Positions 52,644 through 63,714 of a stretch of 64,000 nucleotides of DNA are shown here, in pieces. This DNA comes from Halorubrum cibi. Its GTDB lineage: Archaea; Halobacteriota; Halobacteria; Halobacteriales; Haloferacaceae. The DNA lies in NCBI RefSeq assembly GCF_900182635.1, contig NZ_FXTD01000006.1:124001-188000 (forward strand), given 5' to 3'. Numbering within the stretch: the first letter of the stretch is position 1; every line of letters starts with the position of its first letter. The notes under the pieces were generated by a model that was not told where the DNA came from, made no database searches, and saw only the letters and a program-made list of their open reading frames with translations. A program made the position numbers and the translations under genes.

Positions 52644-53624
52644 ATGAGACACCGACGAACTCTCGCGGCGTTGCTGATCGTCGTCGTGACCGCGGGCTGT
52701 ATGGGGGCCGTCCCCGGACTCGGGGGCGCCGGACCGATCGACCAGACGCCGGACAGCGCCGAGGCGGTGTTCCACGTGGACGCCGACGGACTGGAGGGCG
52801 ACCCCGCGACCACGACGATCGTCGAGAGCCTCTCGGAGGAGAACCCGTCCGTGGAGGGGCCCGAGGAGGTCGGAAGCGACTTCGAGGACGAATTCAACGT
52901 CGCGCCCGGTGACGTGAGCGAGGTGCTGGTGTTCACCGAGGACGTCGAGACCGCGGGCGGGTACGGCGAGCAGTCCGTCGGGCTCATCGTTCACGGCGAG
53001 TTCGACTCCGAGGAGGTCATAGACGGCATCCGAAACCAGTCGACCGACCTCGAGGAGGTCGAGTACAACGACCACACGCTGTACGCGGGGCCCGATCAGA
53101 GCCTCGCCGGCGACACGGCGGCCGTCGCCGTGCTCGACGACGGCCAGATCGTCATCGGCGACCGGGCCTCGGTCGAATCGGTCGTCGACACCACGACCGG
53201 TGACGCGGACGCGCTGAGCGGAGACCTCAGAGACGAGTACGACGCGGCCACCGACGGCGCGCTCGTCGCGGGCGTGACGGAGTTCCCGGGCGAGGAGCTC
53301 TCCGGGCAGTCGGTCGGTGCCGGCATCGACACCTCCGTCCTCGAATCCGTGACGCTCGCGTCCTACGGGTATCGGACCGACGACCAGACGGTGTCCACGG
53401 AGCTTCGGCTCCACACCGAGAGCGCGTCCGACGCGCAGGACCTCCGGGACGTGATCGCCGGCGCGCTCGTCGCCGCCGGCGACACCGGGTACGAGGACCT
53501 CGACGCCGAACTGGACGAGATCGAGGCCGAACAGGACTCCGACGACGAGTCGATCGTCGTCGTCGGCTACGAGGGTAACGCCGAGGACGTCGCGGGCGTG
53601 ATAGAGACGTTCCTCTACGCGTGA
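52644..53624 (+). CDS. Secreted lipoprotein of unknown function
   Basis: 326 residues. The signal peptide MRHRRTLAALLIVVVTAGCM ends in the lipobox TAGC, so the mature protein starts at Cys19, lipid-linked at the outer surface. The remainder is very acidic with no recognised domain: repeated alternations such as AEAVFHVDADGLEG, VGLIVHGEFDSEEVIDGI and GQIVIGDRASVESVVDTTTG suggest two related alpha/beta modules. A TATA-like TTTAAG is at 52603-52608. It lies just upstream of an ABC exporter pair and may be its partner. Confidence 0.8.
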   Translation: MRHRRTLAALLIVVVTAGCMGAVPGLGGAGPIDQTPDSAEAVFHVDADGLEGDPATTTIVESLSEENPSVEGPEEVGSDFEDEFNVAPGDVSEVLVFTEDVETAGGYGEQSVGLIVHGEFDSEEVIDGIRNQSTDLEEVEYNDHTLYAGPDQSLAGDTAAVAVLDDGQIVIGDRASVESVVDTTTGDADALSGDLRDEYDAATDGALVAGVTEFPGEELSGQSVGAGIDTSVLESVTLASYGYRTDDQTVSTELRLHTESASDAQDLRDVIAGALVAAGDTGYEDLDAELDEIEAEQDSDDESIVVVGYEGNAEDVAGVIETFLYA

Positions 53625-53669
53625 TGGAGACCCTCCTCTACTAGCGTCGACGCTCCGGCTCGCCATCCG

Positions 53670-54743
53670 ATGATACGCGACACGGCCGTGTTCCTCTGGA
53701 CGGAAGCGTACGCGGCCAGACGACGGCTCGCCGCCCTCTTCGTCGGCTTCGCCCTTCTTCCCGGCCTCCTCGTGGTCGGCACCGCCGGCTTCGATCAGAC
53801 GCTTCCACAGGACGTCCCCGTGGGCGTCGCGCCGGCGGAGGCGGAAACGACCGCGGACGACCTGACCGTGACGCGAGGCGGGGTCGCGCTGCTTGGCACG
53901 CCGGTCCAGTACGAGACGGAGGAGGCGGCCCTCCGCGGGCTCGACCGCGAGGAGGTGTACCTCGTCGTCCTCGTCCCGCCCGACGTCCTCGACGACGACT
54001 CGACGACGGAGTTCCGAATGATATGGCACGGCTCTGCGGTACCGCTCATCGAGGCGATCGGACTGCTGGAGGCCGTGTTGAGCGTCGAACTCTCGTCGTT
54101 TCTCCCCGGCGAGGTCGACGTCACCCACGAGCAGCGCGGAGTGCAGTTGACGCTCTCGGAGTACCTCATTCCGACAGGCATGACCCTGTTCGTGTTGGTC
54201 GTCGGACTGCTCTTCGTGCCCTACGACGTGATGACCGACCGACCGGTACTCGATCGGGTCCGTCACCAGTCTCGGTTGGAGGCGTTCGTGGCCGCGAAGC
54301 TCCTCTTTTACACCCTCCTGACGGGATCCGTACTCGTCGCCGTCGCAGTCGCGAACGTCCCGATGGAGTACCGGATCACCCCGTTACGCGTTGAGACCGC
54401 GACCGCGGTGGGGCTGTTGTTCCTCTCGACGGCGGCGGTCGGTACCGGGATCGCGTTCCTTCTCGGGTTGGGACGCACCGCGCTGTTCGTCAACCTCGGC
54501 GTGTTGATCGGGGTCGTCGGGTTCGGCAGTCTGCTGTACCCGGTCGGGTTCTTCTCGTCGACGCGGATGGCGATCGCGCGGAGCCTCCCGCCCCACTACC
54601 TCGCGATCGCGATCAGGGGCCACCTCGTCCGCGGCGACGGGTTCGGCCTGTACGCCGACTGGTACCGGTTCATCGGCGTCTACGTCGTCGGCTGTCTCGG
54701 CTTCTGTTGGAGCTGCGTCCGGACCTACGAGTGGAGGCGCTGA
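53670..54743 (+). CDS. ABC-2-type transporter permease
   Basis: 357 residues. One N-terminal helix (RRLAALFVGFALLPGLLVVG), a large extracytoplasmic domain (residues 40-165), then five or so helices (YLIPTGMTLFVLVVGLLFVP, KLLFYTLLTGSVLVAVAVAN, AVGLLFLSTAAVGTGIAFLL, ALFVNLGVLIGVVGFGSLLY, FIGVYVVGCLGFCWSC). This is the layout of ABC-2 exporter permeases. The ATPase gene follows two bases after its stop. Cargo unknown. Confidence 0.8.
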   Translation: MIRDTAVFLWTEAYAARRRLAALFVGFALLPGLLVVGTAGFDQTLPQDVPVGVAPAEAETTADDLTVTRGGVALLGTPVQYETEEAALRGLDREEVYLVVLVPPDVLDDDSTTEFRMIWHGSAVPLIEAIGLLEAVLSVELSSFLPGEVDVTHEQRGVQLTLSEYLIPTGMTLFVLVVGLLFVPYDVMTDRPVLDRVRHQSRLEAFVAAKLLFYTLLTGSVLVAVAVANVPMEYRITPLRVETATAVGLLFLSTAAVGTGIAFLLGLGRTALFVNLGVLIGVVGFGSLLYPVGFFSSTRMAIARSLPPHYLAIAIRGHLVRGDGFGLYADWYRFIGVYVVGCLGFCWSCVRTYEWRR

Positions 54744-54745
54744 AG

Positions 54746-55471
54746 ATGTCGGACCGCGCCGCGTCCGACCGTCTCACCCGCCTCCGCGACCGGATCGAGG
54801 ATCGCCTCGGGCGAATCGGTTCGCGGGGGCGATACCGGGACTCCTCGTCGGACCCGTCGGCCCCGCTCGTCCGGTTTTGCGGCGTCTCGAAGCGATTTGG
54901 ACCGGTGACGGCGCTCGACGGGATCGACTGTCGGTTCGATCGCGGCAGGATCCACGGCGTCGTCGGGCCGAACGGATCGGGAAAGACGACGTTTTTCGAG
55001 CTGCTCCTCCGATTGCGACATCCGACGGCCGGAACCGTGATCTCGCCGCCGCCGGCGGCCATCGGCTACTCGTTTCAGGAACCGCAGTTCTACCCGAACC
55101 TCACGGCCGAAGAGAACCTCTCGGTCTTCGCGCGGCTTCACGGCGACGTCGACCCCGAGTGGCGTCGCTCCGTGACCGAACGGCTCCGGCTCGACAGGGT
55201 CCGACACCAGCGAGCCGCGGCCCTTTCGGGCGGTTTTCGAAAGAAGCTCGACGTCGCCATCGCGTTCGTCTCCGAGCCGGAGTTGATCGTTCTCGACGAG
55301 CCGCTCGCGGGGATCGACCGGCTCTCTCGGAAACGCGTTCTCGAGCTGATCGTCGAACACGTCGAGAAGGGAGGAACCGTCCTCATCTCCTCACACGATC
55401 GCGGGCGTGTCGATCCGATCTTGGACTCCTCGCTCGCGCTGTACGACGGTCGCGTCGGTCGACCGGAGTGA
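54746..55471 (+). CDS. ABC transporter ATP-binding protein
   Basis: 241 residues from MSDRAASDRL. A 38-residue basic N-terminal tail precedes the ABC domain: Walker A GPNGSGKTT (74-82), Q loop in GYSFQEPQFYPNLTAEEN, signature LSGGFRKKLDVAIAF, Walker B LIVLDEPLAGID and H loop LISSHD. The signature motif has Phe where Gln is usual (LSGGQ), seen in some ABC-2 exporter ATPases. It is coupled with the permease at 53670; an ATG at 54707 would overlap that gene and is rejected. Confidence 0.87.
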   Translation: MSDRAASDRLTRLRDRIEDRLGRIGSRGRYRDSSSDPSAPLVRFCGVSKRFGPVTALDGIDCRFDRGRIHGVVGPNGSGKTTFFELLLRLRHPTAGTVISPPPAAIGYSFQEPQFYPNLTAEENLSVFARLHGDVDPEWRRSVTERLRLDRVRHQRAAALSGGFRKKLDVAIAFVSEPELIVLDEPLAGIDRLSRKRVLELIVEHVEKGGTVLISSHDRGRVDPILDSSLALYDGRVGRPE

Positions 55472-55529
55472 GAGTCGACCGCGACGACTGGGAGCGGTCG
55501 ACTCCTCTCTCCGCACGCGCCTTCGGACC

Positions 55530-55536
55530 TTTTAAG
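55530..55536 (+). promoter_or_regulatory. TATA box of proS
   Basis: TTTTAAG, centred about 28 nt before the ATG at 55562. Confidence 0.6.
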
Positions 55537-55561
55537 CCCGCGACCCGCCGTGTGAGGAACA

Positions 55562-57082
55562 ATGAGCGACGACGACCAGGAGCTCGGGATCACCGAGTCC
55601 AAGTCACACAACACCGGCGAGTGGTACGCCGAGGTCGTACGGAAGGCGGGGTTGGCCGACTACGGCCCCGAGGGAATGAGCGGGTTCATCATCACGCGGC
55701 CGCGGGCGTACGCCGTCTGGGAGCGGCTCCAGGGGTTCCTGGACGCGAAGTTCAAGGACACCGGGGTTCAGAACGCATACTTCCCGATGTTCATCCCCGA
55801 GTCCTACCTCGAACGCGAGAAGGACATCGTCGAGGGGTTCGACCCCGAGGTGGCGTGGGTGACCGAGGCGGGCACGAAGGAGCTGGAAGAGCGGCTCGCG
55901 GTGCGGCCGACCTCCGAGTCGATCATCACGCCGTACATCTCCCAGTGGGTGCGGAGCCACCGTGACCTCCCGCTGCGGGTGAACCAGTGGTGTTCGGTCG
56001 TGCGCTGGGAGGCGACGGAGACGAAGCCGTTCTTCCGGACGAAGGAGTTCCTCTGGCAGGAGGGCCACACCGCCCACGCGACGAGCGAGGACGCCTGGGA
56101 CGAGACGATGACCCGGCTCGACCAGTACGAGTCCGTCTACGAGGACTTCCTCGCGATCCCGGTTCTCAAAGGGCAGAAGCCCGCCCACGACAAGTTCCCC
56201 GGCGCGGACACGACGACGACCGTCGAGGCGCTGATGCCCGACGGCAAGTCCGTCCAGGGCGCGACGTCCCATCACCTCGGACGGTCGTTCGCCGAGGCGT
56301 TCGACATCACCTTCTCCGACGCCGAGGAGGACGAGCGGACGGCCCACACGACCTCGTGGGGCCTCTCCTGGCGCGCGCTCGGCGCGTTGATAATGACTCA
56401 CTCGGACGAACAGGGACTCGTGCTCCCGCCGACGGTCGCGCCGACTCAGGTCGTCGTCGTCCCGATCTGGCAGGAGGACACCAAAGACGACGTGCTCGCG
56501 TACGCCGAGGGCGTCGCCGACGACCTCGATGACGCCGGGATCCGCGTCGAACTCGACGATCGCGACGAGCGCAACCCCGGATTCAAGTTCAACGAACACG
56601 AGCTGAACGGGATCCCGCTGCGGATCGAGATCGGTCCCTACGAGGTCGAGGACGACGAGCTGACCTTGAACCACCGGCCCGACGGCGAGGAGCACGTCGA
56701 GGCCCGCGAGGGCGTCGCCGAGACCGTCCGCGACCACCTCGATACGGTGTACGCGAAGCTGTACGCGGCCGCCGAGGACACCCTCGACGGGGAGGTTCGG
56801 GAGGCGGACGACCGCGCCGGGATCCTCGGCACCCTCGGCCAGCACGGCGGCTACGTGAAGACGCCCTGGTGCGGCGACGAGGCCTGCGAGGAGCCGATCA
56901 AGGAGCCGATGGCCGCGGAGATCGTCATGGTCCCCTTCGAGGACGACGACCCCCTCGTCGGGGAACGCGGCGACGGGGAGGGCGACGCCGCCGGGAGCGA
57001 CGACGACGCGAGCCACGGGGAGACGTGCGCGATCTGCGGCGACCCGGCCGAGCGGACGGCGTACTTCGCGAAGTCGTACTGA
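55562..57082 (+). CDS. proS: Prolyl-tRNA synthetase, archaeal type
   Basis: 506 residues. Class II motifs: motif 1 region GFIITRPRAYAVWERLQGFL and NAYFPMFIPESYL; motif 2 RWEATETKPFFRTKEFLWQE; proline-pocket TSWGLSWRALGALIMTHSDE with motif 3. The anticodon-binding domain follows (PTQVVVVPIWQEDTKDD). The C-terminal zinc-binding domain is present, with CGDEACEE and CAICGD, and the protein ends in the conserved AYFAKSY. An acidic loop (RGDGEGDAAGSDDDASHG) splits the cysteine pairs. Confidence 0.97.
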   Translation: MSDDDQELGITESKSHNTGEWYAEVVRKAGLADYGPEGMSGFIITRPRAYAVWERLQGFLDAKFKDTGVQNAYFPMFIPESYLEREKDIVEGFDPEVAWVTEAGTKELEERLAVRPTSESIITPYISQWVRSHRDLPLRVNQWCSVVRWEATETKPFFRTKEFLWQEGHTAHATSEDAWDETMTRLDQYESVYEDFLAIPVLKGQKPAHDKFPGADTTTTVEALMPDGKSVQGATSHHLGRSFAEAFDITFSDAEEDERTAHTTSWGLSWRALGALIMTHSDEQGLVLPPTVAPTQVVVVPIWQEDTKDDVLAYAEGVADDLDDAGIRVELDDRDERNPGFKFNEHELNGIPLRIEIGPYEVEDDELTLNHRPDGEEHVEAREGVAETVRDHLDTVYAKLYAAAEDTLDGEVREADDRAGILGTLGQHGGYVKTPWCGDEACEEPIKEPMAAEIVMVPFEDDDPLVGERGDGEGDAAGSDDDASHGETCAICGDPAERTAYFAKSY

Positions 57083-57150
57083 GCGAGCCGCCCTCGGCTT
57101 TCACTCGATCTCCGCGCGGGCCGGCGGTTCACCCGGCTCGACGCAGTCGG

Positions 57151-57180
57151 CCGATTTAATCGGGTTTGATCGGGCTTGAT
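57151..57180 (+). promoter_or_regulatory. 10-bp phased direct repeats upstream of the DUF7096-like gene
   Basis: CGGGTTTGAT and CGGGCTTGAT are adjacent (57161-57180) and preceded by a diverged copy CCGATTTAAT. The 10-bp phase, one helical turn, and the position 25-55 bases before the TATA box fit an activator or repressor site. Confidence 0.35.
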
Positions 57181-57200
57181 CCGGAACGAAGGGTGTGGGT

Positions 57201-57208
57201 GTATTTAG
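57201..57208 (+). promoter_or_regulatory. TATA box of the DUF7096-like gene
   Basis: GTATTTAG, centred 27 nt before the ATG at 57232. Confidence 0.6.
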
Positions 57209-57231
57209 GCGTCGGTCGCCGATCGGGAGGT

Positions 57232-58446
57232 ATGAACCGACGGATCACGTTGCTCGTCGCCGCGCTGGCGGTCGCGGGGCTGATCGCGATGGTCCCGCTC
57301 GGAGCCGCGGTGACCGGCGGGCCCGGAGTCTCTCCCGCGACCGGCGACGGCGCGGGTACCGACGGGGGTATCGACGAGTTCGCACAGGCCGGATCGGAGG
57401 GCGGTACGAACGCCTCCGACGGAGCCACTGCGGACGACCTCAGTCCCGGCGAACGGCTCTCCGGCGTCATCGGCGTCCAGGGGGCCGAAGTCGACGGCGA
57501 GGTGTCCTCGCGCTCCTTCGAGATCCGGCTCGCGGACGCCGAGACCGACGAGGAGCGCGCGGCGGTGATCGCGGCGCAGCTCGAGCGGAATGGGGAGCGG
57601 CTGGCGGAGCTGCGGGAGCGGCAGCGGGAGCTCCGGGAACGCCGGGAGGCCGGGAACGTGAGTTCCGGCGCGTATGCCGCGCGGCAGGCGGCGATCGGGA
57701 CGCGCGTGGCGACCGTGAATCGAACGACGAACCGGAGCGCCGAGGTCGCCGCGGACCTGCCCGAGGAGGCGCTCGCCGAGCGGGACGTCGACGCCGACCG
57801 TATCCGAACCCTCCGTGAGAGCGCGAGCGAGCTGAGCGGTCCCGAGGTCGCGGCGATCACCAGGGAGATCGGCGGCAACCGCACCGGCGCGCCGATGGGT
57901 CCCGACCGTCGCGGTCCGCCCGGATCCGGGATCGGTGCTCCGGACGGCTCGGCCGACCGCGGTCCGCCCGACGGTCTCCCTGGGAGCGGTCCGTCGGAAG
58001 CCGACGCCCCGGAGGGCGGAGAAAACGCGACCGGACCGCGAAACGGGTCGATCGCCGATCCAGGAGGGGCCGAGAACGCGACCGCCGAAAGCGACGACGC
58101 CGAGAACGCCGGTGACGAGTCGAACGGCGATGGATCCGACGTCGACGGGGCGGACGACGGAGGCGCGGATACCGACGAGGCCGAGGCGGACGGTGCCGGC
58201 GGTAACGGCGGCGCCGACGCCGGGTCTGACGAGGACGACGACGCCGGGACTGACGAAGACGCCGACGCCGGGACTGACGAAGACGCCGACGCCGGAACCG
58301 ACGACGGCGAGGGTGCCGAAACCGACGACGGCGACGCCGGAGGCGGTTCCGGTTCGGAGTCCGGGACCGACCCGGAATCGGATACTGGAGACGGGGCGAG
58401 CGGTGGTGACGGGGTGAGCGGTAGTGACCGCCGCGGTGGCCCGTAG
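57232..58446 (+). CDS. Secreted coiled-coil protein, DUF7096-like
   Basis: 404 residues. Signal peptide MNRRITLLVAALAVAGLIAM. Conserved core: LSPGERLSGVIGVQGAEVDG, SRSFEIRLADAETDEERAAV, then a heptad-rich coiled coil LERNGERLAELRERQRELRE, and RTLRESASELSGPEVAAITR. By recall the family is DUF7096. The last 170 residues are Asp/Gly/Glu/Asn low complexity partly encoded by a 24-bp repeat. Function unknown; secretion and pairing with the membrane-bound winged-helix protein downstream suggest an extracytoplasmic sensing partner, which is inference. Confidence 0.78.
   Translation: MNRRITLLVAALAVAGLIAMVPLGAAVTGGPGVSPATGDGAGTDGGIDEFAQAGSEGGTNASDGATADDLSPGERLSGVIGVQGAEVDGEVSSRSFEIRLADAETDEERAAVIAAQLERNGERLAELRERQRELRERREAGNVSSGAYAARQAAIGTRVATVNRTTNRSAEVAADLPEEALAERDVDADRIRTLRESASELSGPEVAAITREIGGNRTGAPMGPDRRGPPGSGIGAPDGSADRGPPDGLPGSGPSEADAPEGGENATGPRNGSIADPGGAENATAESDDAENAGDESNGDGSDVDGADDGGADTDEAEADGAGGNGGADAGSDEDDDAGTDEDADAGTDEDADAGTDDGEGAETDDGDAGGGSGSESGTDPESDTGDGASGGDGVSGSDRRGGP
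58240..58311. repeat. 24-bp repeat in the DUF7096-like gene
   Basis: Two perfect tandem copies of a 24-bp unit (58240-58263 and 58264-58287) and a third partial copy; each encodes Asp-Ala-Gly-Thr-Asp-Glu-Asp-Ala. Confidence 0.85.
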
Positions 58447-58497
58447 CGCACTCGCGTCGGCGACGGACGGCCGGAGTCGACGGCAGACATGAGAAGC

Positions 58498-58504
58498 GAT
58501 TTAG
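58498..58504 (+). promoter_or_regulatory. TATA box supporting the GTG start at 58528
   Basis: GATTTAG is centred 27 nt before GTG 58528. If used, the upstream ATG at 58489 is not transcribed. Confidence 0.45.
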
Positions 58505-58527
58505 CACGCCCCCGTGTCGTGTTCCCC

Positions 58528-59730
58528 GTGCAGCGAACGACGATTTCCGCGACGCTCGCCTGGCGTCTCCTCGCCGTCGGTCTCCTCGTCGGTGGCCTCC
58601 TCGCCGGCGCGTCCGGTGGCGTCGCGGGCGTCGCGGGGGACCCCTTCGCCCAACAGGAGGAGATCGACCCCGACGACGTCCTGATCACCGTCGACGTCGA
58701 CGCCGACGGCGACGCGGTCTGGACGATCGAGTACCGGGTCCGACTCTCGACGAGCGATGAGGAACGGGCCTTCGAGGAGTTCCGGACGGACCTCGAGGCG
58801 AACTCCGAGGCGTACACCGATCGGTTCCGCGGCCGGATGGAGACGACGGTCAACGAGTCCTCGTCGGCCACGGGCCGAGACATGAGCGTTTCGAACGTGT
58901 CGGTGGCCGCGGAGCGGCGGGAGATCCCCCAGGAGTACGGAGTCGTCACCTACCGGTTCCGCTGGGACGGGTTCGCGACCGTCGAGGACGGACGGATCGC
59001 GGCCGGCGACGCGATCGACGGCATGTTCCTCGACGAGGAGAGCTCGCTCATCGTCTCGTGGCCGGACTCCCACGACTTGGAGTCGGCCTCGCCCGCACCG
59101 GCGGAGACGCGCGACGGGTCGGTCGTCTGGGTCGGACCGGTCGATTTCGCCGGGGACGAGCCGCGGATCTCGATGGCCCCCGACTCCGTCGTGGACTCGA
59201 TCCCGAGCGGACTGCCGGCCCTCGCCGTGGTCGGCCTCCTCGCCGTCCTCGGCGGAGTTGCGGCGTACTTCCGACGCGATCGGGAGTCGTCGTCCTCGCC
59301 GGCGACGGGACCGACGCCGGTCGAATCGGGGACGACCGCCGGCACCGCCGCCGCGGACGACGACCCCGCGACGGAGTCGGTCGCGGCCGACGCCCCCGAC
59401 GAGCCGGACGCTCCCGACGAAGCCGACGACGGCACGACTGACGACGGCGCGATCGATGACGAGGCGGACGTACCGCCGGTCGACGCGGAGCTTCTGAGCA
59501 ACGAAGAGCAGGTGCTCCGGCTCCTCGATCGCGAGGGTGGTCGAATGAAACAGAAGCGGGTCGCCGACGAGCTCGACTGGACTGCCGCTAAGACGAGTCA
59601 GGTTGTGACCGGACTCCGCGACGAGGGTGACCTGGAGGGGTTCCGACTGGGCCGCGAGAACGTTCTCACGCTGCCGGAGGAAGGGGACGGCGGCGACGGC
59701 GACGAGGACGACGGGAACGGTCGGGCGTAG
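58528..59730 (+). CDS. Membrane-anchored protein with C-terminal winged helix (DUF7345/DUF7343-like)
   Basis: 400 residues from GTG 58528; ATG 58489 would add 13. A signal peptide or first helix (LAWRLLAVGLLVGGLLAGAS) leads to an extracytoplasmic beta-rich domain (VLITVDVDADGDAVWTIEYR ... VVTYRFRWDGFATVEDGRIA), one helix (LPALAVVGLLAVLGGVAAYF), an acidic linker, and a cytoplasmic MarR-like winged helix (LLSNEEQVLRLLDREGGRMK, QKRVADELDWTAAKTSQVVT). This is a one-protein transmembrane regulator: it can read outside signals and bind DNA inside. It follows the secreted DUF7096-like protein by 81 bases. Confidence 0.82.
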   Translation: MQRTTISATLAWRLLAVGLLVGGLLAGASGGVAGVAGDPFAQQEEIDPDDVLITVDVDADGDAVWTIEYRVRLSTSDEERAFEEFRTDLEANSEAYTDRFRGRMETTVNESSSATGRDMSVSNVSVAAERREIPQEYGVVTYRFRWDGFATVEDGRIAAGDAIDGMFLDEESSLIVSWPDSHDLESASPAPAETRDGSVVWVGPVDFAGDEPRISMAPDSVVDSIPSGLPALAVVGLLAVLGGVAAYFRRDRESSSSPATGPTPVESGTTAGTAAADDDPATESVAADAPDEPDAPDEADDGTTDDGAIDDEADVPPVDAELLSNEEQVLRLLDREGGRMKQKRVADELDWTAAKTSQVVTGLRDEGDLEGFRLGRENVLTLPEEGDGGDGDEDDGNGRA

Positions 59731-59741
59731 CGACGACGCGA

Positions 59742-61058
59742 TCAGAGGTGTTCGCGCGCTGCCGCCGCCGCCTTCCGCCCGCTCTCCAACGCGCCCTGGA
59801 TCGAGGACCACTCAGTGTACTCGCCCGCGAGGACCACCGGTCCCTCGGGATCGTCCGGATCGGGAAGCGTCGCGTGGACGCCCGGCGGTTGGGCGAACTG
59901 CGCGAAGGGGATCCGATCGACGGCGACGGTCTCGAGGCTCTCGAACCCGCGCTCGGGGTACCACCCGGAGAGCGCCTCTCGGGCGTCCTCGCGGAGGTCG
60001 TCGGCGTCGCGCTCGAGTGCCGCCTCGCCGAGGAACGTCGCCGCGAGAAGCGGGCGATTCCGCGGCGCGTACTCGGTCGCGACCTCCGAGATCGGCACCA
60101 CCGCGTTCGGCGACTCGCCCGCCGCGTTGAGCAGGATCCGCTTGCCGGTCGAAAACGACGAGCGCTCGGGGAGTGAGAACCACGCGGTGACGTTGGGGAC
60201 TCCCGACTCGGGGATCGACCCGACGCCGGTCAGCTTCCGCGCCTCCGGCGGCGTGGTCGCGACGACGACGCACCGCGCGTCGAGGGTCTTCCCGTCCGCG
60301 AGCTCGACGCGCGCGCCGTCCGCCGGGCCGCCCGATCCGAGCCGGAACCGGCCGCCCGAGCCGACGTCGACCGCCTCGACGTCCTCGCCGGTGTGAACCT
60401 CGACGCCGGCGTCCGCGGCGCGCTCGGCCAACTGTTCGGGTATCGCCGCCATTCCCTCGGCGGGGACCGCGATCGACCCGCGGCTCATCGCGCGGAAGGT
60501 GTACTCGAAGACGGTCTCGGCGGTCGAAAGCGATCGGTCGAGCGTGATCCCGCCGTAGAAGGGCTCGACGAAGTTCTCGACGTAGTCGCTCGAGAACCCC
60601 CAGTCGGAGAGGTACTCGCGGATCGTCGCGTCGGAGCCGGAGCCAGCGAAGAACTCGTCTTCCGCGCGCTTCGAGAGGTCGTATCGGAGCGCGAGCGTCC
60701 GGAGCTTATCGGAGAAGGGGACCTCGTGGTTGAGCGCGGACTCGATCACGGCGGTCGGCTCGCGGAGCGGGTCCGAGAGGACGGCCCGCGAGCCCGGTCG
60801 GCAGATCGTCGCACCGGGCGAGAACGTCCGGAGGTCGAGCGCCCCCGTGTCGAGTTCTCGCGCCACGGCCGGGTAGCTCGTGAAAAGCACCTGAAAGCCC
60901 CGGTCGAGCGTGAACCCGTCGACGTCGCGGGAGCGGACCCGGCCGCCGACGCGCGGCCGCCGTTCGAGAAGCGTCACGTCCGCGCCCGCCTCCGCGAGCC
61001 GGGCCGCCGAGACGAGCCCGGCGAGCCCGCCACCGACGACGATGGCGTCTGCGTCCAT
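59742..61058 (-). CDS. FAD-dependent amine oxidase/phytoene desaturase-like protein
   Basis: 438 residues from MDADAIVVGGGLAGLVSAAR, a full Rossmann GxGxxG site, with the GGR motif in RRPRVGGRVRSRDVDGFTLD. GFQVLFTSYPAV and the C-terminal VVLAGEYTEWSSIQGALESG complete the flavin monoamine oxidase/CrtI fold. AVENFVEPFYGGITLDRSLS-like segments match protoporphyrinogen oxidase/UDP-galactopyranose mutase-like relatives. Substrate unknown; no carotenoid genes are nearby. Leaderless with a TATA box at 61082-61088. Confidence 0.87.
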   Translation of the reverse strand: MDADAIVVGGGLAGLVSAARLAEAGADVTLLERRPRVGGRVRSRDVDGFTLDRGFQVLFTSYPAVARELDTGALDLRTFSPGATICRPGSRAVLSDPLREPTAVIESALNHEVPFSDKLRTLALRYDLSKRAEDEFFAGSGSDATIREYLSDWGFSSDYVENFVEPFYGGITLDRSLSTAETVFEYTFRAMSRGSIAVPAEGMAAIPEQLAERAADAGVEVHTGEDVEAVDVGSGGRFRLGSGGPADGARVELADGKTLDARCVVVATTPPEARKLTGVGSIPESGVPNVTAWFSLPERSSFSTGKRILLNAAGESPNAVVPISEVATEYAPRNRPLLAATFLGEAALERDADDLREDAREALSGWYPERGFESLETVAVDRIPFAQFAQPPGVHATLPDPDDPEGPVVLAGEYTEWSSIQGALESGRKAAAAAREHL

Positions 61059-61081
61059 GATCGCCGTATCGGTCCGGCGGG

Positions 61082-61088
61082 TAATAAG
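61082..61088 (-). promoter_or_regulatory. TATA box of the FAD oxidoreductase at 59742
   Basis: Minus-strand CTTATTA, 27 nt before the ATG at 61058. Confidence 0.6.
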
Positions 61089-61169
61089 GGACCACGCTTC
61101 GGCCGAATCGGGCGTTCGCGTCCCTCGATCGACCGCTCGCTCCACCCTCGACGACCTCGAGACTCCGCG

Positions 61170-62360
61170 CTACCAGTCGTACTCCTCGCGGGGGTCGACC
61201 GCGTCGCGCTCGCGGTCGAAGACGTGCTCGCCGTCGACGAAGACGTGTCGCGTTCGACTGTCGTTCTCGTGGAAGACGCCGTCCCAGACCGCCACGTCGG
61301 CGTCGGTGCCGACCGCTATGGTGCCGACGCGGTCGTCGATACCGAGGATCTCGGCGGGGTACCGCGTCACCGCCTCGAGCGCTTCCTCCTCGGGGAAGCC
61401 CTCGCGGACCGCGAGCCCGACGCAGACGTCGAGGTGCTGTTGGGGCAACACGGGCGCGTCGGTCTGGATCGCGACCTTCACGCCGGCTTCGTGGAGGATC
61501 GCCGGCGTCTCGAAGGTGATGTTCCGCAGTTCGTACTTCGCGCCCGAATACAGCGACGGCCCGACAACCGCCGGCACGTCCCGCTTCGCGAACTCCTCCG
61601 CTATCAGGTGCCCCTCGGTCGCGTGCTCGATCGAGATCTCGTCGATCCCGAATTCCGCCGTGATCCGGAAAACGGTCATGATGTCGTCGGCCCGGTGCGC
61701 GTGGACCCGGAGCGGGAGCCCCTCGGTGAGCACGCGCGAGAGGTTCTCCATGCCGAGGTCGCGCTCGAACGGTTCGTCCTCGGCTCGGGCGTGTTCGCGC
61801 CGGTCGACGTAGTCCTCCGCCTCCATCAGCGCCGAGCGCAGCGTGGCCGCCACGCCGGGGCGCGTCGACGGCTGGCGGTTCTGCTCCTCGCCGTGGAAGC
61901 GCTTGGGGTTCTCGCCCATCGCGGCCTTCATCCCGTCCTCGCGGATCAGCATGTCGTCGGCGGTCAGTCCGTGGGTCTTCATCGAGCAGATGATCCCGCC
62001 GATCACGTTCCCGGAGCCCATCCGCGCCGAGACCGAGGTCACGCCGTTCTGGAACGCGTGTTTCAGCTCCTCGTCGCGGGGATGAAACCCGTCGAGCGCG
62101 GTGACGTGCGGGGTGACCGCGGCGGTCCCCTCGTTGTAGTCGCGGTCCTCGGGTTCGCCCCACTCGGCCACCCCGGCGTGGCTGTGGGCGTCGACGAGCC
62201 CCGGCGTGACGTGATGGCCCTCGACGTCGAGGACGGTCGCCTCCTCGGGCGGGTCGACGTCGCCGACGGCGACGATCTCCCCGTGGTCGATGACGACGGT
62301 TCCATCGATCGTTCCTCGCTCCGTTGCCGTGTGGACGGTTCCGCCGACCAGCGCGTACAT
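61170..62360 (-). CDS. Amidohydrolase (imidazolonepropionase-related)
   Basis: 396 residues from MYALVGGTVHTATERGTIDG. The metal-binding HxH is in TPGLVDAHSHAGVAEWG; a further His in LRVHAHRADDIMTVFRI and IEHATEGHLIAEEF; the catalytic Asp in KVAIQTDAPVLPQQHL. The beta-sandwich ends are typical (IAVGTDADVAVWDGVFHEND). It hydrolyses a C-N bond in an unknown cyclic or N-acyl substrate. A TATA box (ATATATAA) 26 nt upstream supports the start over an in-frame ATG at 62489. Confidence 0.88.
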   Translation of the reverse strand: MYALVGGTVHTATERGTIDGTVVIDHGEIVAVGDVDPPEEATVLDVEGHHVTPGLVDAHSHAGVAEWGEPEDRDYNEGTAAVTPHVTALDGFHPRDEELKHAFQNGVTSVSARMGSGNVIGGIICSMKTHGLTADDMLIREDGMKAAMGENPKRFHGEEQNRQPSTRPGVAATLRSALMEAEDYVDRREHARAEDEPFERDLGMENLSRVLTEGLPLRVHAHRADDIMTVFRITAEFGIDEISIEHATEGHLIAEEFAKRDVPAVVGPSLYSGAKYELRNITFETPAILHEAGVKVAIQTDAPVLPQQHLDVCVGLAVREGFPEEEALEAVTRYPAEILGIDDRVGTIAVGTDADVAVWDGVFHENDSRTRHVFVDGEHVFDRERDAVDPREEYDW

Positions 62361-62381
62361 GCGGCCGGCTTCGGCGGCTCG

Positions 62382-62389
62382 ATATATAA
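62382..62389 (-). promoter_or_regulatory. TATA box of the amidohydrolase gene
   Basis: Minus-strand TTATATAT, 26 nt before the ATG at 62360. Confidence 0.65.
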
Positions 62390-62511
62390 ACGGTTCAGGA
62401 CGCCGCTTCTCCACCGCGCCTCGAGGGGGACCGGTTCGCATGCGAACGATGATCTCACACGCGCTCGGCCCTCTCGCATCGCTTTTCACGCCGGACTGCC
62501 CACTCCGGGTA

Positions 62512-63714
62512 ATGAGTTACCGGATCGGTCTCGTCGGTAAGCCCTCGGTGGGTAAATCGACGTTCTTCAACGCGGCGACGATGAACGACGTGCCCGAGGG
62601 AGCCTATCCCTTCACGACGATCGATCCCAGCGTGGGCGAGGCGTACGTCCGCGTGGAGTGTGCGGCCCCGGAGTTCGACGAGACGTGTACCCCGAGCGTC
62701 GGCGTCTGTCGCGATGGCACGCGGTTCGTCCCGATCGAACTCGTCGACGTGGCCGGGCTGGTCCCGGGCGCACACGAGGGGCGCGGGCTCGGCAACCAGT
62801 TCCTGACCGACCTCAACGAGACGGACGCGTTGGTCCACGTCGTCGACTTCTCGGGGACGACGGACATCGAGGGCGAGCGGACCGAGGGACACGACCCCCG
62901 CGAGGACATCGACTTCCTCGAGGAGGAACTCGACGCCTGGTACCTCGACGTGCTCTCGAAGGGTCTCGAGAAGTACGAGACGCGTTATCAGGGCTCCGAG
63001 GCCGCCATCGAGGAGGAACTGGCCGAGCAGATGTCCGCGTTCGGGATCACGAAGGACGAGATGAAGCAGGTCATCCTCGCCGAGGGGCTCGAACTCGAGC
63101 CTGAGACGTGGGACGGTGAGGACCGCGAGGAGCTCGCCCGCGAGATCAGGAAACGCACCAAGCCGATGGTCGTCGCGGCCAACAAGACCGACACGCCGGA
63201 AGCCAGGGAGAACTGGGCCGAGATCACGTCGGACCCCGACTACGACCACCTCTCGTTCGTCCCCGCGAGCGCCCACGCCGAGAAGGCGCTCAAGAACGCG
63301 GACGAGGCGGGCGTCGTCGACTACACCGCCGGCGACGACGACTTCGCGATCGTCGGCGACGTCTCCGACGAGCAGGCGGCGGGCCTCGACGCGATCCGCG
63401 ACCACGTGACCGAGTACGGCGGGACCGGCGTCCAGGCGGCGCTCGAGGCCGCCGTCTTCGACGTGCTCGGCTGTATCGCGGTGTTCCCCGGCTCCGCGAA
63501 CGGGTCGAAAGACGAGAAGGGCGTCTTCCGCGACTGCTTCCTTCTCCCCGAGGGCGCAACGACGGAGGACTTCGCGTACCACATCCACTCCGACATCGGC
63601 GAGGGACTGCTCCACGGCACGGACTGCCGGAGCGGCCGACAGGTCGGCACCGACCACGACCTCTCCCACCGCGACGTGATCGAGTTGATCTCGACCAAAC
63701 AGGCCGCGCCGTAG
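62512..63714 (+). CDS. ychF: YchF/Ola1-type P-loop NTPase
   Basis: 400 residues. G1 is GLVGKPSVGKST at 6-17; ASP-FTT switch region GAYPFTTIDPSVGEAYV; G3 is LVDVAGLVPGAHEGRGLGNQ; NKTD (VVAANKTDTPEARENWAEI) is G4. The C-terminal TGS-like domain appears at LGCIAVFPGSANGSKDEKGV ... LLPEGATTEDFAYHIHSDIG. The family preferentially binds ATP and associates with ribosomes. Archaeal form, about 400 residues, as expected. A TATA-like element sits 28 nt upstream of ATG 62512. Confidence 0.93.
   Translation: MSYRIGLVGKPSVGKSTFFNAATMNDVPEGAYPFTTIDPSVGEAYVRVECAAPEFDETCTPSVGVCRDGTRFVPIELVDVAGLVPGAHEGRGLGNQFLTDLNETDALVHVVDFSGTTDIEGERTEGHDPREDIDFLEEELDAWYLDVLSKGLEKYETRYQGSEAAIEEELAEQMSAFGITKDEMKQVILAEGLELEPETWDGEDREELAREIRKRTKPMVVAANKTDTPEARENWAEITSDPDYDHLSFVPASAHAEKALKNADEAGVVDYTAGDDDFAIVGDVSDEQAAGLDAIRDHVTEYGGTGVQAALEAAVFDVLGCIAVFPGSANGSKDEKGVFRDCFLLPEGATTEDFAYHIHSDIGEGLLHGTDCRSGRQVGTDHDLSHRDVIELISTKQAAP

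Follow-up and report, generated by a model that had tools for sequence, protein, structure and literature searches.

Transmembrane transcription regulators, which like the protein described here carry a predicted membrane segment and a DNA-binding domain in one polypeptide, are widespread, archaea included, and single-pass forms are the commonest in the accessible part of the survey by Demey et al. (2023; PMC10269533). The accessible main text of that survey contains none of the words haloarchaea, MarR or winged helix and, unlike what we report below, describes neither a secreted companion nor an operator. ArnR and ArnR1 of Sulfolobus are likewise archaeal membrane-bound one-component regulators and, according to the available portion of their description (PMC6396743), they regulate surface structures, with ArnR consisting of an N-terminal HTH, a HAMP-like part and two C-terminal membrane segments. 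As far as the partial sources go, the ToxR-ToxS and TcpP-TcpH pairs of Vibrio resemble the present pair in joining a membrane-bound winged helix to an outside partner encoded beside it. The winged helix of these Vibrio regulators is N-terminal and the partner is membrane-anchored; proteins of the ToxR/CadC type have an N-terminal cytoplasmic winged helix of the OmpR/PhoB type and a C-terminal outside domain. How information flows from the surface to the genome in archaea is poorly known, and few archaeal membrane regulators have a known operator.

Here, we analyze two adjacent genes in a 64,000-nucleotide stretch of Halorubrum cibi DNA (contig NZ_FXTD01000006.1, positions 124,001 to 188,000; hereafter, the window), which encode an exported protein, COIL, and a transmembrane winged-helix protein, REG. 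We computed their architecture, the conservation and joint duplication of the pair, and an operator with its recurrence. With somewhat more confidence than doubt, we propose that the pair is a one-component transmembrane regulator and its secreted partner, joined in a feedback loop that controls a few surface proteins.

Results

COIL is an exported protein modelled as a helical bundle and REG a predicted transmembrane winged-helix protein

Both open frames described in an earlier reading made from the letters alone (the sequence-only reading) were confirmed on the forward strand, COIL at 57232-58446 and REG, as called by the ORF finder from an ATG, at 58489-59730. COIL, a protein of 404 aa, is a member of DUF7096 (PF23379; 36.5 bits against a Pfam gathering cut-off of 27). 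Hydropathy finds a single hydrophobic segment, N-terminal at aa 3-30 and none elsewhere, which supports the earlier claim of export and predicts a signal peptide region at aa 1-28 (57232-57315). On the other hand, the long coiled coil that had been proposed is modelled instead as a compact antiparallel helical bundle at aa 72-214 (57445-57873; AlphaFold2 with 13 aligned sequences, pLDDT mostly >90). The bundle is followed by an acidic Gly/Asp-rich tail (57874-58443) of about 190 residues with 28% D+E, which is disordered in the fold run to aa 253 and, by its composition, probably beyond. No Foldseek row for structural relatives of COIL reached E 0.001, and since the best VIA-align Z (≤10.4) was to a helical bundle, the likeness reflects only a common arrangement. 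Possible N-glycosylation sites number eight in COIL and two in REG.

REG is a member of both DUF7345 (PF24036; 110.5 bits against a cut-off of 27.5) and DUF7343 (PF24034; 95.8 bits against 27.6), and hydropathy finds hydrophobic segments at aa 19-42 and aa 234-263. Its parts follow in the order of an N-terminal signal or anchor segment (58543-58614), an outside domain (58678-59181, with the DUF7345 core at 58687-59070), a membrane helix (59188-59277), an acidic linker (59278-59490) and the DUF7343 winged helix (59491-59676). AlphaFold2 (14 aligned sequences) models the outside domain as strands and a helical pair with pLDDT mostly 80-97, and after it the membrane helix, a disordered linker and the winged helix. 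From sequence and model, we infer that DUF7345 lies outside and the winged helix inside. Pfam, AlphaFold2 and VIA-align thus agree with the outside domain, single membrane helix and inside winged helix of the sequence-only reading, and REG unites the predicted membrane region and predicted DNA-binding domain that define a transmembrane transcription regulator in the accessible text of PMC10269533.

The DNA-binding part of REG is nearly invariant in a 14-protein alignment, GRENVL of the wing included. In VIA-align, this winged helix matches MarR-type, ArsR-type and Z-alpha chains about equally well (Z 8.4-9.4); its fold is a common one, and REG scores below the Pfam cut-offs for MarR_2 (13 bits against 27) and HTH_IclR (14.9 bits against 22). 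A PDB sequence search with the REG profile returned three rows, all at E 0.29 or worse, and no NCBIfam family was above its cut-off for the four proteins queried. A Foldseek match of DUF7345 to FMO protein had TM-scores of 0.15-0.19 and was not taken as real.

Each gene probably has its own core promoter

The ATG at 58489 sits within a conserved box, about ATGAGAAGCGATTTA, that is BRE-plus-TATA-like in look. All 23 coil-first or convergent loci compared retain a GTG, at 58528 in the window, that is preceded at 27-30 nt by a TATA-like box; locus comparison and motif search place this box in the window at 58500-58503 (TTTA), 28 nt before the GTG. Because of this conserved spacing, REG is probably translated from the GTG (58528-59730, forward strand) on a leaderless transcript of its own. 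We rejected a start at 58489, since that ATG falls in the REG promoter box, and the start adopted by the sequence-only reading is 39 bases off. The COIL box, TATTTA at 57202-57207, lies 30 nt before the ATG, a spacing fixed in an alignment of 26 promoters.

A polycistronic unit of proS, COIL and REG was rejected because both COIL and REG have a TATA-like box of their own some 28-30 nt ahead of the start codon, and it is also contradicted by a gene order that differs between genera. The gene order of the window from 52644 to 62540 is kept in a near relative (L152); we take these genes to be a possible secreted protein, ABC transporter parts, proS, COIL, REG, a flavin oxidase, an amidohydrolase and a YchF-like GTPase.

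The pair is conserved across the order and was duplicated as a unit

Of 146 genomes of the order, 139 contain DUF7096 and 144 contain DUF7345. The best DUF7096 match adjoins DUF7345 in at least 125 of the 134 genomes with a listed match, always divergently, and two loci counted as unpaired among the matches listed (L004 and L006) nevertheless hold REG. The window genome has such a second, divergent pair on contig 2, where COIL additionally carries DUF7094 and Fn3_arc. Relatives of the window type were found among 99 genomes of the family, REG in 98 and COIL in 79, and the best COIL is paired with REG in at least 67 of these 79 among the REG matches listed, leaving at most 12 unpaired among the stronger matches listed, a point against the proposed module. 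These pairs are tandem with REG first in 55 cases, tandem with COIL first in 10 and divergent in 2, and the COIL-first order is that of the window's genus and one sister genus. In Halorubrum, the pair sits behind proS.

Trees were built from 105 pairs (loci with a REG score of at least 300 bits, one copy per sequence), and both proteins split identically into 54 divergent pairs, here called type I, and 51 co-directional or convergent pairs including that of the window, here called type II. Support for the type II clade is 1.0 in both trees and for the type I clade 0.73 and 0.67. Since the two trees split alike, they indicate that the pair was duplicated together. Distance matrices of COIL and REG correlate at 0.67 and 0.87, with 0 of 1000 permutations as high, a correlation for which shared species history could suffice.

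Among 16 stretches compared, the sole other recurring family, counted with frames overlapping COIL and REG set aside, is a 2'-5' RNA ligase-like gene near the pair in 8. By tblastn, 22 haloarchaeal records of a plasmid collection contain relatives, which among the matches listed carry the annotation hypothetical, HTH or DUF4897. Judged from these comparisons, the pair is ancient and widespread, and the conservation on which the sequence-only reading depended is borne out by pairing across the order in four arrangements and by matching trees.

Direct repeats mark the promoters of type II COIL

An unbiased motif search of upstream regions returned a tandem TTAATCCGG before type II COIL (19 bits, 51 loci) and a different element, ATGGAAAGYRTTTTCTCC, upstream of type I REG (25 bits, 54 loci), with shuffles giving 8 bits in each case. 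We scored the former as TTRATYSGNNTTRATYSG with a threshold of 14 of 16. At this threshold, the candidate operator is present in 38 of the 51 linked type II COIL promoters, from which the pattern was drawn, and in 7 of 10 unlinked ones; among these ten, L179 is also in the 26-promoter profile used below. Elsewhere, it occurs in 1 of 48 type II REG, 0 of 54 type I COIL and 0 of 54 type I REG promoters, and in 0 to 0.6% of shuffles. Its absence from both sets of 54 type I promoters and from 47 of the 48 type II REG promoters led us to reject it as an ordinary haloarchaeal promoter feature; since it is missing from type II REG promoters, REG is not apparently autoregulated through it.

The distance from the first repeat to the TATA-like box is 34-36 bp, or some 10 bp more, in most loci, and the 26 profile promoters align gap-free over 48 columns. 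The window has the direct repeats TTAATCGGG, TTGATCGGG and TTGATCCGG at a 10-bp period (57156-57184, forward strand), the last starting 26 bp upstream of the TATA box. Exact matches to the pattern lie at 57156-57174 and 57166-57184, where 0.21 would be expected at up to 3 mismatches. Across the 3.18 Mb genome, 57156-57184 is the only exact match, four more places match at 2 mismatches, and the reversed pattern has no match.

Several further sites were seen. Type I REG promoters have a near-palindromic GAAAGYRTTTTC about 30-45 nt before the start that is conserved across the order, as in the divergent intergenic regions of L122 and L191-L197 and on contig 2 of the window genome at 180359-180372; the element may combine a BRE/TATA box with a superimposed operator. 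GAAAGCGTTTTGCC with up to 1 mismatch has one site in the genome. At L214 (G000 contig 1 near 353511), a two-mismatch operator and then a TATA-like box have no clear gene behind them, and the flanking genes are presumably archaeal ATP synthase subunits B and D.

The cell-division regulator CdrS has 18 ChIP-seq sites, HVO_1944 (see Discussion) among them, in the accessible part of PMC8406309. Judged by target genes, it is unlikely that the operator is the CdrS motif, because other CdrS targets (ftsZ1, dacZ and proteasome genes) are not among the operator genes identified.

We take REG to be the probable binder of the repeats because REG and COIL are paired. A point against this is that the operator goes with COIL and not with REG, and the repeats could instead be bound by a different, unlinked factor, so that REG would regulate other genes and COIL would be both REG's outside partner and that factor's target. 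This explanation would account for the operator staying with COIL when REG is elsewhere, for its absence from REG promoters and for the quite different conserved promoter element of type I REG. We nevertheless consider it unlikely, as among COIL genes only the type II lineage carries the operator, and its REG forms a lineage of its own; moreover, the 16 stretches compared show no second regulator gene that is kept next to the pairs.

The candidate regulon in Halorubrum consists largely of exported proteins

We ran the profile of 26 promoters on 29 Halorubrum genomes. Strong matches (E < 1e-4) were found in 26 of the 29, all 26 at COIL and partly from training species, and G397, G401 and G409 had none, which may count against the proposed loop. 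Among 27 further matches at E up to 0.1, 23 fall in four recurrent promoters, which precede an acidic-tailed exported protein (MSQRTIG type; 10 matches), a DUF4382 lipoprotein with a twin-arginine-like start (4), a small exported protein (MNAIRTALLG type; 5, one of them from the broken context of L269) and a response-regulator gene with a start like that of the lipoprotein gene (4); the remaining 4 precede no recurrent gene. Pfam assignments cover one or two proteins per type. Three of the four recurrent promoters thus lead to exported products, and the response regulator at the fourth, like the 4 matches outside these promoters, is a point against a module devoted to surface proteins. The window genome has the small exported gene and then a DUF4382 gene. 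A third, degenerate repeat, TTAACGGAGT, is letter-identical in many promoters of COIL and of the MSQRTIG-type genes, which are not homologous to each other.

The response-regulator gene behind the operator at L252, L256, L263 and L273 is a single-domain one, and it looks as if the promoter and start had been copied or the lipoprotein gene lost. A recurrent TTTAATYCGGTTTGTATCCGGGTTAACGGCG at L276 and L279, in two genomes of the genus, has no obvious downstream gene on that strand.

DUF7345 proteins lacking the winged helix also adjoin COIL

Eleven short DUF7345 proteins end in a C-terminal membrane helix and lack the winged helix, and 11 of 11 adjoin COIL, in a sample biased by its origin in loci selected for a match to COIL or DUF7345. 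They form a third gene behind REG and COIL at L171, L172, L173 and L174; the others are at L175, L180, L181, L185, L201, L204 and L208. Since all of these proteins adjoin COIL, the partner of COIL may be DUF7345 itself, and the short proteins are possible decoy receptors. In the wider phylum, DUF7345 occurs in 54 of 196 genomes and DUF7096 in 36 of 196, 33 of the order in each case. COIL stands beside a DUF7345 protein in the outgroup stretches L201 and L202, and four outgroup stretches have REG without COIL, so part of the family does without COIL.

These loci bear on a second explanation, in which COIL would be a structural surface protein and the main target of REG, and REG would sense some other envelope signal with no contact to COIL. 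The exported proteins and lipoproteins among the other operator targets are what it would predict, as is REG standing alone in the four outgroups. We think it unlikely, since the winged-helix-less DUF7345 proteins beside COIL favor a physical link between COIL and DUF7345 over a pure link of regulator and target. That COIL and REG are mere neighbors with no functional link, as the position of Halorubrum window-type pairs behind proS and their separate leaderless promoters might suggest, is highly improbable given that four arrangements (divergent, two tandem orders and convergent) all keep the pair together and that the two trees split the same way.

Discussion

In the feedback loop that we favor, REG would be anchored in the membrane with DUF7345 outside and the winged helix inside on its acidic linker, and would probably form a side-by-side pair held together by DUF7345 or the membrane helix. 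COIL would be exported to serve as the outside partner of DUF7345, and its amount or state at the surface would set the activity of REG. REG would bind the 10-bp direct repeats just upstream of the core promoters of COIL and of a few exported proteins or lipoproteins, and the 10-bp phase would fit side-by-side binding on one face of the DNA. Since the repeats sit just upstream of the core promoter, REG would most likely act there as an activator; archaeal activators typically bind upstream of promoters, according to the accessible part of PMC8406309. Such a loop would match the supply of surface proteins to the state of the envelope. A broader version, a pan-haloarchaeal trans-envelope feedback circuit with COIL as effector, REG reading the repeats and winged-helix-less receptors as decoys or sinks, is conceivable and, in our view, rather doubtful. 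The sequence-only reading had seen in the pair a ligand or modulator with a transmembrane transcription factor, and this is strengthened by COIL keeping its place beside DUF7345 even without a winged helix and by its own conserved operator; the binding itself enters our proposal as a presumed step.

The available tables of PMC8241124 list HVO_1944 and HVO_0306 of Haloferax volcanii as "probable transmembrane glycoprotein/HTH domain protein", and HVO_1945 and HVO_0307, at the next locus numbers, as secreted hypothetical proteins and N-glycoproteins. All four appear there as glycoproteins or candidates and so as exposed outside. By their names and locus numbers, HVO_1944/HVO_1945 and HVO_0306/HVO_0307 would be the two DUF7345-DUF7343/DUF7096 pairs, and if they are, that source already provides experimental support for an outside location of both partners. 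The HVO_0307 in the accessible text of PMC6801745, also written HVO_A0307 there, is an Lrp-type factor and a different protein. Our literature search found no paper naming DUF7096, DUF7345 or DUF7343 and, in the accessible parts of papers naming any of the four Haloferax loci, no study of the pair. The module is present in nearly every haloarchaeon examined, and since it has a definable operator, a predicted set of exported targets and likely homologues in Haloferax volcanii, the circuit is directly testable with existing genetics.

Compared with known systems, REG is not of the ArnR type, as its winged helix is C-terminal with one membrane helix before it, the reverse of the ArnR order, and no HAMP row was found in Pfam; the large outside domain and the C-terminal winged helix are what set REG apart. 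Nor is it of the ToxR/CadC type, in view of the C-terminal winged helix and the lack of any OmpR-type model in Pfam rows up to E 1. The analogy to ToxR drawn in the sequence-only reading therefore holds in logic and fails in domain order and DNA-binding model. Unlike the ToxR-ToxS and TcpP-TcpH pairs, REG has its winged helix at the C terminus and COIL is exported and, by sequence, soluble, a likeness without evident common ancestry. If the broader circuit outlined above exists, it would constitute an entire class of surface sensing in archaea that depends on neither a kinase nor proteolysis. Altogether, a membrane-bound one-component regulator is a known kind of protein; the novelty lies in its set of domains, in a partner that is exported, in the form lacking the winged helix and in the direct-repeat operator.
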